Assembly (NCBI GenBank): GCA_021787435.1
Contig: JAJYLY010000005.1
Location: forward strand, 1-64,000
DNA length: 64,000 bases
Source of the DNA: Pseudomonadota bacterium
Lineage (GTDB): Bacteria > Pseudomonadota > Gammaproteobacteria > Burkholderiales > Gallionellaceae
Direction: 5' to 3'
Under the pieces are notes generated by a model. It did no database searches and had not been told where the DNA came from. It saw nothing but the letters and a program-made list of their open reading frames with translations. Below are positions 11,247 to 36,417 of the stretch, piece by piece. Positions within the stretch are counted from its first letter, which is position 1, and each line of letters opens with the position of its first letter. Both the position numbers and the translations under genes were made by a program.

Positions 11247-11250
<4 letters not shown>

Positions 11251-12419
11251 TCGGATTCATCCATTGCGTTGAGATCGATCTTGATGCCGCTGATGTTGGA
11301 TTTTGGAGGCTTAGCTGCTTCGGGAAGCGGTGTGTAAGCCGGCACGCTCATGGTGTTCGTGCGTTCAGAGAAATCGATCAGCGAAGAAAGGTTGCTTGCC
11401 GAATCGGCACTGCGCATAGCCTCTTCTTTGGTGATCTTCCCTGATTTGAACAACCTGTATAGTGCTTGCTCGAAAGTCTGAGAGCCGGGGGAGACGCTCT
11501 TGTCCATCGCCTCGTGGATCTTTTCGATTTCGTCGTTCTTAATCAGGTCGGCAATCAGTGTGGTGTTGAGCAATACTTCCACGGCAGGTATTTGTTTGCC
11601 CTGAACTGTGCGAACCAGACGCTGCGAAATAACGGCCCTTAAGCTCATGGAAAGGTCGGCTAGAACGCCTTGACGCGAGTCGTAGGGAAAGAAATTGACG
11701 ATGCGGTTTAACGCGTGATAACTGTTGTTGGCATGCAGTGTCGTCAGACACAGATGACCCGTCTGTGCAAAGATCAGCGCGTGTTTCAAGGTGTCTCTGT
11801 CGCGTACTTCTCCAATCATCAGCACATCGGGTGCTTCGCGCATGCCGAAAGACAGCGCATTTTCGTAGTTCAGAGTGTCCGTGCCGAGTTCGCGCTGGTT
11901 AACGATGGACTTTTCGTGCTTGAATATGTATTCGATTGGGTCTTCAACAGTCAGAATGTGTCCGGTCTGCGTGGTATTGCGATGCTGGATCATTGCGGCC
12001 AGCGTGGTGGACTTCCCGGAGCCTGTCGCACCCACCACGAGCACCAGCCCGCGTTTTTCCATGATCAGCGATTTCAGCACAGCGGGAAGATTAAGCTCGC
12101 CAATTTCCCCGATGGCACCCTTGATATAGCGTATGACCATCGCGATGTCGCCGCGCTGACGGAAGATGTTGACGCGGAAACTGCCAAGCTGATCGGCACG
12201 GTAGGAGAAATTGATCTCCATACTGTTCTCGAATTCGAGGATCTGTTTCGAGTTCATCATTTCATAGGCGATGCGCTTGATGACTTCCGGAGTCAGCACC
12301 TGCGTATTGACCGGGCCAGTCACACCGTCTATCTTGATATTGACTGGCGCTCCCACCGAGAAGAAAAGGTCTGAGGCCTGCCTCTCGGCCGCCAGTTTCA
12401 ATAAGGGTGTGACGAGCAT
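11247..12419 (-). CDS. pilU: type IV pilus retraction ATPase PilU
   Basis: A 390-residue hexameric motor ATPase of the PilT/GspE family acting at the cytoplasmic face of the type IV pilus. Walker A is GATGSGKSTT (about 135), the Asp box is TVEDPIEY (about 160), Walker B is MIGEVRDRDT (about 200) and the His box is HLCLTTLHANN. The long variable C-terminal tail and QRELGTDTLNYENAL mark it as PilU more than PilT, and pilT itself is not in the window. GGAG is 6 nt before the ATG. A six-copy heptamer array ends just before that ribosome binding site. Lying between dap genes is unusual. Confidence 0.9.
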
Positions 12420-12430
12420 GATTATCTCCA

Positions 12431-12493
12431 GTTGTCAGTTGTCAGTTGTCAGTTGTCAGTTGTCAGTTGTCAGTAGCTAGTTGTTAGTTGAAG
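12431..12493 (+). repeat. heptanucleotide tandem array (GTTGTCA)n in the pilU-dapD gap
   Basis: Six exact GTTGTCA units cover 12431-12472, followed in register by the variants GTAGCTA, GTTGTTA and GTTGAAG to 12493. On the strand read into pilU the unit is TGACAAC, and the array stops a few bases before the GGAG of pilU. The region at 12520-12547 continues the 7-nt spacing (ACTGGCA, ACTAAAG, TCTAGCG, TCTGGCG). It is a simple tandem repeat, too short and too uniform to be a CRISPR. Confidence 0.93.
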
Positions 12494-12554
12494 TTGTCGC
12501 AGCTTTGGGGCAGATTTTAACTGGCAACTAAAGTCTAGCGTCTGGCGATTGCTT

Positions 12555-13376
12555 TTAAATTCCTCGCAGCAGCTCGTTGATGCCGACTTTTGATAAGGTC
12601 TTGGCGTCGACTTTCTTGACGATGACCGCACAATACAGGCTGTATTTGCCATCAGATGAGGGCAGGCTGCCGCTGACCACAACCGAGCCCGCAGGTACCC
12701 TGCCATAGGTCACGGTCCCTGTTTCGCGATCATAGATTTTTGTGGACTGACCGATGAATACCCCCATGGAAATCACCACATTGTCTTCCAGTATCACGCC
12801 TTCGACAATTTCAGAACGCGCGCCGACGAAACAGTTATCGCCGATGATGGTCGGATTGGCCTGCACCGGTTCCAGCACGCCGCCGATGCCCACACCGCCT
12901 GAGAGGTGCACGTTTTTGCCGATCTGCGCGCAGGAACCGACCGTCGCCCAAGTGTCCACCATGGTGCCTTCATCCACATAGGCGCCGATGTTGACATAGG
13001 AGGGCATCAGCACCACGTTCTTGGCGATGTATGCGCCCTTCCGCGCTGCGGCTGGAGGAACCACGCGAAAGCCGCCTTCGCGAAAATCTCGGCTGTTGTA
13101 ATCGGCGAACTTGGAAGGCACCTTGTCATAGTAATTGGTGAAACCGCCCTTGATGAAGGCGTTGTCTTCAAGACGGAAAGAAAGCAACACTGCCTTTTTG
13201 AGCCATTGATGTGTAACCCAGTCGCCATTGACCTTTTCTGCAACGCGCAGCTTTCCTGTATCCAGTTGAGCGATCACGGCGTTGACCGCTTCCTTCAATT
13301 GTGCATCCGCATTACGCGGCGTTATCTCTGCGCGGCGTTCAAAAGCTGTTTCGATAATTTGCTGTAATTGATCCAT
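12555..13376 (-). CDS. dapD: tetrahydrodipicolinate N-succinyltransferase
   Basis: A 273-residue trimeric enzyme of the left-handed beta-helix acyltransferase family. It adds succinyl from succinyl-CoA to tetrahydrodipicolinate in the DAP/lysine pathway. The middle of the protein (about 100-230) consists of hexapeptide repeats ([41 protein letters not shown]), and the N-terminal helical domain begins [16 protein letters not shown]. Length and end ([15 protein letters not shown]) are normal. It lies downstream of dapC in the same direction, with 76 nt between them. Confidence 0.96.
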
Positions 13377-34398: not shown

Positions 34399-36261
34399 TT
34401 ATTTTCCGCGCATGAACATCGCGTCCAGTTCCTTGATCGATAGCTGGAACCAAGTCGGCCTTCCGTGGTTACATTGACCCGAGCGGGAGGTGCTTTCCAT
34501 CTCGCGCAGCAGTGAATTCATTTCCGGTACGCTTAAAATCCTGTTGGCGCGCACCGCGCCATGGCAGGCCAGCGTTGCCAGCAGTTCGTCGCGGCGTTCG
34601 GTGAGCACGCGGCTTGCGCCAAATTCACGCAATTCATGCAACACCTCGCGCGCAGCAACTTCGGCATCTGCCTGTTTAAGCAGCACCGGCATCGCGCGTA
34701 TCGCTAGCATGGTCGGTGACAGAGGAGCGATGTCGAATCCCAGTCTTTGCAGTGTTTCCTGTTCAGCTTCTACGGTGGCGATGTCCAGCGCTTCAGCAGC
34801 AAAGGTAACTGGGATCAGCAGAGGCTGAGTGGCGATGCGCTCAGCATCCAGTGATACCTTGAGTTTCTCGTAGACGATGCGCTCGTGGGCGGCGTGCATG
34901 TCCACGATGACCAGACCCTGCGCATTTTGCGCCAGAATATAAACGCCAGAAAGCTGGGCCAGAGCATAACCCAGAGGATGGTCAGTGGTGAGTGGTGAGT
35001 CATAAGCAGGAACAGTTTTGCCACTCTCTACTTGCCACTCGCAATTTGCTGTATTTTTATTCACTACGCCCGACTCAGTATTCTCTGATTGTGTTTTTGC
35101 ATCCTCAATCCTCAATCCTGATCCCTCTGTCTGCATTTCCCATACCCGATAGGATGCATTCAACTGCGATGCACCAAGCGGTAATTGAGTCGGTCTGATG
35201 TATGGGGCCTCAAGTTCAGTCGGCTGAGTAGTCCGGTCTGGCGCTGCCAGCACTTCCTGCAACGCATGGAAGATGAACTGATGTACGGCTTGGCTTTCAC
35301 GAAAGCGCACCTCACTCTTCGCTGGATGCACGTTCACATCCACCTGTTCTTGGGGAAGTTCTAAAAACAGCACGAAGGCGGGGTGACGCTGGTGGTGCAG
35401 TATGTCCTGATAGGCCTGGCGCAACGCATGGCTTGCCACCTTGTCGCGCACGAAGCGACCGTTGACGAAAAAATATTGCGCATCACGATTGCTGCGCGAA
35501 TAGGCGGGGAGGGCGGCTATGCCATGTAGTCTGAGATTGGCAGCGTTGCGGGAAACACTCACCGCAGCTTTGCAGAACTCATCGCCCAGCAGGGCCGCAA
35601 CGCGTTTTAACGTAGCATCCTGAGTCCAGGATGCTGAGTTCTGAATCCTGAATCCTGTAGCGAGTTGCCAGACGATGCGGCCGTTGTGCTGCAGCGAAAA
35701 AGAAACATCGGGTCGCGAGAGCGCTATGCGCTTGAATATTTCTTCGCAATGGGCGAATTCGGTGGATTCGGATTTCAGAAATTTTCGTCTTGCCGGCGTA
35801 TTGAAATAAAGCTCCCTGATTTTGACGCTGGTGCCGGGCGGGTGGCTGCAGGGTGCTGGATCGCTGATGAAGCCATCCTGTACGTCGACCTGCCAGCCAT
35901 GTGCATCTGCGCTCGGGCGGCTGGAAAGCGTAAGCTGCGCCACCGCCGCCATGCTGGCCAGTGCTTCGCCGCGAAACCCCATGCTGGACACACTCTGCAA
36001 ATCATCGAGCGTTGCGATTTTGCTGGTAGCATGGCGCATCAGTGCCAGCGGAAGCTCGTCCTTTGCGATGCCGCGCCCGTTGTCCCGCACATGCAGCAGC
36101 TTGATGCCGCCATTCTCCAATTGGACCTCGATGTCGCTAGCACCTGCATCAAGGCTGTTTTCAAGCAGTTCCTTCAGCGCGGCGGCTGGACGGTCAATCA
36201 CTTCGCCTGCGGCAATTTGGTTGATTAGAAGTTCGGATAATAGCCGGATAGATGAAGGCAT
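34399..36261 (-). CDS. mutL: DNA mismatch repair protein MutL, endonuclease type, with repeat insertions
   Basis: A 620-residue GHKL ATPase that links mismatch recognition to strand incision. N-terminal motifs: INQIAAGEVIDRP, ELLENSLDAGA (Asn/Asp), VRDNGRGI, MGFRGEALASM. The C-terminal domain keeps MHAAHERIVYE, ACHGAVRANR and CNHGRPTW, the zinc-endonuclease motifs absent from E. coli MutL, so methyl-independent repair is likely. Two places carry heptad repeats in frame: GFRIQNSASWTQDA in the ATPase/transducer half (35617-35658) and most of the linker (34980-35121). ATG 36261 (MPSSIRLL) is the family start. AT-rich accessory gene follows downstream. Confidence 0.95.
   Translation of the reverse strand: MPSSIRLLSELLINQIAAGEVIDRPAAALKELLENSLDAGASDIEVQLENGGIKLLHVRDNGRGIAKDELPLALMRHATSKIATLDDLQSVSSMGFRGEALASMAAVAQLTLSSRPSADAHGWQVDVQDGFISDPAPCSHPPGTSVKIRELYFNTPARRKFLKSESTEFAHCEEIFKRIALSRPDVSFSLQHNGRIVWQLATGFRIQNSASWTQDATLKRVAALLGDEFCKAAVSVSRNAANLRLHGIAALPAYSRSNRDAQYFFVNGRFVRDKVASHALRQAYQDILHHQRHPAFVLFLELPQEQVDVNVHPAKSEVRFRESQAVHQFIFHALQEVLAAPDRTTQPTELEAPYIRPTQLPLGASQLNASYRVWEMQTEGSGLRIEDAKTQSENTESGVVNKNTANCEWQVESGKTVPAYDSPLTTDHPLGYALAQLSGVYILAQNAQGLVIVDMHAAHERIVYEKLKVSLDAERIATQPLLIPVTFAAEALDIATVEAEQETLQRLGFDIAPLSPTMLAIRAMPVLLKQADAEVAAREVLHELREFGASRVLTERRDELLATLACHGAVRANRILSVPEMNSLLREMESTSRSGQCNHGRPTWFQLSIKELDAMFMRGK
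34980..35121 (+). repeat. cluster of heptad repeats in the mutL linker
   Basis: Three tracts with a 7-nt period lie in the linker-coding part of mutL: GGTCAGT-GGTGAGT-GGTGAGT (34980-35000), TTGCCAC-TCTCTAC-TTGCCAC-TCGCAAT (35018-35045) and ATCCTCA-ATCCTCA-ATCCTGA (35101-35121). They encode low-information linker residues such as CEWQVESGK and keep the frame. Confidence 0.85.
35617..35658 (+). repeat. heptad repeat in the N-terminal half of mutL
   Basis: Six units in register: ATCCTGA, GTCCAGG, ATGCTGA, GTTCTGA, ATCCTGA, ATCCTGT. Length 42 nt is divisible by both 7 and 3, which preserves the frame; it encodes FRIQNSASWTQDA between WQLATG and LKRVAALLGDEF, where other MutL proteins have only a few variable residues. 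Confidence 0.85.
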
Positions 36262-36417
36262 ATAAGAAAAATGGACGGTGTATGTGCGATTATAACGGAG
36301 CGAGCGCTTTTTCATGCATATTCGGCTTGACTTGTTAGCCTGTTAAGCGTCAGACTGGGCGTGTAGTTGAGTATATTGATAGTGTATATCCTAAAACTTT
36401 GTTCAGGGAGAAATGCC

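Follow-up and report, generated by a model that had tools for sequence, protein, structure and literature searches.

A tandem array of heptamers stands directly upstream of the ribosome binding site of pilU in a member of the Gallionellaceae, and it raises the question of whether it is a switch for pilus movement or a repeat of another origin. We analysed it in a window of 64,000 nucleotides (the whole stretch of DNA under study, contig JAJYLY010000005.1 of assembly GCA_021787435.1) and in related genomes. We found that slippage in one member of a dispersed repeat family explains the array better than a switch built for pilus movement.

The heptamer array and the dapD–pilU spacer

The gene pilU (11247–12419, minus strand) is an open reading frame for a pilus ATPase of the PilT/PilU family (390 aa; TIGR01420, with a PilU as the best PDB match), and dapD, identified by its reading frame and domain match as the gene for tetrahydrodipicolinate N-succinyltransferase (12555–13376), lies upstream on the same strand. 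Direct reading of the window gives six exact GTTGTCA heptamers at positions 12431–12472, which are TGACAAC on the pilU sense strand, and then degenerate units that keep the phase (12473–12493, by direct reading and element alignment) and extend the array to about 12498. Read 5' to 3' on the pilU sense strand, the order is (TGACAAC)6, T, GGAG, six bases, ATG. The initial annotation was right about these units and their place directly upstream of the ribosome binding site, but the gap to the Shine–Dalgarno sequence GGAG (12426–12429, CTCC on the plus strand), which it gave as about 3 nt, measures 1 nt.

Tandem Repeats Finder (TRF) calls a repeat of period 7 with 10.1 copies at 12429–12498, and the exact lag-7 run at the array comprises 39 matches (12429–12474), against 14 for the longest run at lags 5–9 in 50 order-3 Markov windows. 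For the 14-mer, 5 matches were found, with 0.39 expected. In the genome itself (G000; 2.73 Mb in 34 contigs) and 75 more from the genus, the pilU array is the only place with at least three consecutive exact units. Judging by protein similarity, pilU is one among several such ATPases in its genome, since there are four matches to the PilU protein there and more distant PilT/PilU relatives form a tandem pair elsewhere in many genomes of the genus.

We then compared the spacers of those Gallionellaceae PilU relatives with a recognisable dapD end (n = 74). In 12 of them the two genes are 16–31 nt apart; dapD and pilU would thus be arranged as in an operon, and the array most likely lies within an intercistronic leader. 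By repeat class, 17 spacers were assigned to type A (described below), 17 to type B (AGGATTG units), 7 to type C, and 5 to type D, with 12 short spacers and 16 others, the B, C, and D assignments being made by loose patterns. Type-C palindromes, GTAGGGGC...GCCCCTAC, resemble classical GTAG-tagged REPs (spacers L064, L065, L067, L076, L087, L096, and L122), and repeats of several classes share the dapD–pilU spacer as a hot spot.

With the window left out, identity at lag 7 in the spacers of 62 relatives was 0.389, whereas shuffled spacers gave 0.249 (z = 26); further peaks stood at lag 14 (z = 18) and lag 21 (z = 10), and no other lag had a comparable one. Since the 62 sequences are mutually related, the z values make independent events look more numerous than they are. 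Because lags of 7, 14, and 21 are raised without the window, the heptamer period is a family-wide property of the dapD–pilU spacer, of which the array is the extreme.

A heptamer-phased palindrome in the spacer

The array forms the pilU-side arm of a palindrome in the dapD–pilU spacer, an element that the initial annotation had not seen. This element, which we call type A, was located by profile and covariance model at 12456–12551 (minus strand), its pilU-side arm running on into the array. The alignment places the dapD-side arm, CAATCGCCAGACGCTAGACTTTAGTTGCCAGTT, at 12519–12551 and the centre, AAAATCTGCCCCAAAGCTGCGACAACTTC, at 12490–12518, where it is matched to the family core GTTAAAAC..CCGCGNAGCGGACAAC..CAACTAAC. 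Members of the family run from (AGTCGTT)n through GTTAAAAC, a small hairpin (CCGC..GCGG), and ACAAC to (AACGACT)n.

Our alignment (A1) holds 25 type-A copies over about 98 positions, and both arms consist of degenerate heptamers in which AG on the left and CT on the right recur every 7 nt, invariant or nearly so. This phase is strict. A leave-one-out nhmmer profile, built solely from the copies of 22 relatives, matched the window at 12548–12457 on the minus strand with E = 8e-14, against a best E of 0.54 for the reversed window, and the covariance model (R1) matched the window element with E = 3.8e-10. Above the gathering score, Rfam finds the 5S rRNA alone in the window and gives no match for the element. 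A 14-base repeat, present in two and a half copies, follows shortly after the 5S rRNA gene (171–204).

Over the aligned copies, the median fold z against shuffles is −4.6. Arm-to-arm covariation in type A is not clearly above that of shuffled controls, leaving conserved pairing unsupported, and the pairing of the arms may merely follow from two facing heptamer runs.

Probable growth of the array from one arm

In the pilU-side arm, the array unit, CTGACAA, keeps the phase of the family unit, CTAACGA. A second overgrown arm is found in the same genome at hom: seven exact AACGACT units, on the same arm, end just before the hom ATG in a copy located between an aminotransferase gene and the homoserine dehydrogenase gene (L135:1501–1597; G000 C4:221220–221316), with the same layout as at pilU. 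In the two nearest relatives, with PilU identity of 95–96%, one TGACAAC unit stands at the same place before pilU, in the context ACTGACAACTGGAG (identical in L049, one change in L050).

On this evidence, the array is probably an overgrown arm of a REP-like heptamer-phased palindrome in the dapD–pilU spacer. Slipped-strand copying within this repetitive arm, on the side of pilU, is the most likely way in which its last heptamer (CTGACAA) came to be multiplied. The element would be transcribed as a dapD–pilU intercistronic hairpin, and the array would form a weakly structured stretch ahead of the Shine–Dalgarno sequence with little or no regulatory effect.

We infer slippage here from sequence comparison, as the simplest account of the arm's growth. 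The initial annotation had treated the array as of a kind that changes in copy number by slippage, and growth by slippage fits well: the phase of the unit, the single unit in relatives, and the seven-unit arm at hom speak for it, but indels of 7 nt are not clearly enriched. Gaps between related spacers numbered 225 for 6 nt, 205 for 7 nt, and 133 for 8 nt, in alignments that are poor. The history is also not a simple change from one unit to six, because the dapD–pilU spacer of the two nearest relatives carries a different palindrome.

Distribution of type A in the genome and the family

Covariance model R1 finds ten type-A places in the genome itself, of which 3 are seeds and 7 are not. Type-A copies occur in 25 of 40 genomes of the family (own genome counted), as against only 4 of 77 from the order's other families. 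Across Gallionellaceae genomes the element is dispersed and usually stands no more than a few nucleotides from where an ORF ends. In the genome itself all ten copies are placed between ORFs, at about 10 nt or less from the end of one by crude ORF calls, and the neighbouring genes are mostly housekeeping genes (hom, tuf, the IMPDH gene, gcvT, fabH/fabD, cheZ, and a gene with an AIRS domain).

Type-B places (AGGATTG/CAATCCT units) number about 46 in the same genome (E up to 0.05, three being seeds), so that type B is about four times commoner there than type A.

The genome has four matches to Y1_Tnp (RAYT-type), of which two are near full length (C23:154259 and C34:34819) and two are fragments. 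No type-A copy lies within roughly 1.5 kb on either side of these transposase matches, and a RAYT may serve type A in trans.

Alternative explanations

The position of the copies at ORF ends suggests another role, in which the array is incidental and the element chiefly ends or protects dapD transcripts, serving as a 3' hairpin like an intrinsic terminator or a REP. Type-A elements fold as hairpins and several copies close with a T run (L140, L141, and L144), but the window copy has no T run and no terminator-like site was found there. It also folds weakly on the sense strand (z = −2.1, and −0.15 with flanks), and termination would silence pilU unless pilU has its own promoter. We therefore regard this explanation as unlikely.

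Still less probable is the proposal that units gained or lost in the leader alter pilU expression and hence twitching, as do the 7-bp repeats of Haemophilus hmw1A/hmw2A (PMC2424069). The pure 42-bp tract adjoining the Shine–Dalgarno sequence and the single unit in related species favour it, and the hmw promoter repeats offer a precedent as a heptamer tandem upstream of a gene with a surface function. These, however, comprise 9–28 units inside a promoter, with a measured effect on mRNA, whereas the 6 units at pilU lie between the palindrome and the Shine–Dalgarno sequence, with no promoter identified.

A scan of the window found no promoter-like or terminator-like site using the array and one minus-strand promoter-like match, which overlaps the pilU ATG. 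The array was also rejected as a promoter (CTGACA as −35, GATAAT as −10), because the spacing would be 13 or 20 and the transcript start would fall after the ATG. The operon-like adjacency of dapD and pilU also speaks against such a switch.

The initial annotation had suggested phase-variable twitching through a change in leader length. The number of units leaves both the reading frame and the distance from the Shine–Dalgarno sequence to the ATG unchanged, and from 4 to 12 units the predicted unpaired fraction of the Shine–Dalgarno sequence is 0.24–0.46 in a short context and 0.26–0.32 in a long one; predicted accessibility hardly changes once there are more than 4 units. Together with the occurrence of type-A elements beside housekeeping genes, these results count against the suggestion, although a modest effect of the array on translation is possible. 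Our literature search found no heptanucleotide tandem repeats tied to type IV pili and phase variation.

Heptamer repeats of a similar style lie in frame within the mutL reading frame (34399–36315, minus strand), at 34979–35049, 35101–35119, and 35617–35657. They fall at two sites where the MutL proteins of relatives have in-frame insertions that differ in length and sequence. One heptamer gained or lost would shift the frame of mutL, which makes this gene, rather than pilU, the more natural place to expect effects of slippage.

As improbable as the pilU switch is the idea of a regulator-binding array, with heptamers recognised by ribosomal protein S1 or by an RNA-binding protein, which MacGregor proposed for the direct TAACTGA repeats in Beggiatoaceae (MacGregor 2015, PMC4679880): the array unit, read as CAACTGA, is one base from TAACTGA, arrays of 2–6 TAACTGA heptamers likewise end just before start codons, and the array at hom does so too, but a regulon needs many arrays and this genome has a single one of the CAACTGA unit, the hom array has a different unit, and pilU has a normal Shine–Dalgarno sequence, unlike most Beggiatoaceae cases.

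Relation to known repeats and implications

The lengthened arm of a dispersed palindrome remains our preferred reading of the array, and we compared the palindrome with known repeat systems. REPs, with their GTAG and CGTC superfamilies (Di Nocera 2013, PMC3733652), are like type A in being short dispersed palindromes between genes, several per genome, with relatives in frame inside genes, and type A is itself dispersed and mostly intergenic. REPs are 20–40 bp long, whereas type A is about 90–100 bp long with heptamer-periodic arms. Type A is not classed as a REP because the GTAG and CGTC end tags are absent: the A1 consensus starts with TnAGnnG, and GACG/CGTC occurs inside the arms without forming a fixed end.

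The heptamer repeats found between genes in Xanthomonas and Nostoc, of the GGGAATC type (Rehm 2015, PMC4692102), are also heterogeneous arrays, some of them inverted repeats, with a variable number of units, and the heterogeneous intergenic units found here share their 7-nt period. They differ in having another unit, which forms G-quadruplexes, whereas type A has two facing degenerate arms round a conserved core. The Beggiatoaceae genome has 169 sets of one unit (PMC4679880), whereas here there is one array, itself the arm of a palindrome. The nearest known kinds are thus REPs, the Xanthomonas/Nostoc heptamer repeats, and the Beggiatoaceae TAACTGA repeats, and type A behaves like a dispersed intergenic palindrome, of which it is a new variant.

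A search of the literature found no report that links Gallionella to tandem and palindromic repeats. What was an isolated candidate for phase variation becomes a member of a dispersed family for which that search gave no description in these iron-oxidising bacteria. The pilU case shows a tandem array arising from the arm of a palindrome beside a start codon, and arrays of such origin next to start codons can mislead screens for phase variation.

A broader idea, which we offer tentatively and consider rather doubtful, is that types A, B, and D form a superfamily of intergenic palindromes in the Gallionellaceae under one rule, with AG and CT every 7 nt in opposite arms and the other bases of the heptamer free. 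Such elements would be replaced repeatedly at the same spacers, as in dapD–pilU, with arms growing beside start codons as evolvable leaders. If this is true, the AG/CT rule would suggest that some unknown activity copies or binds in steps of 7 nt.
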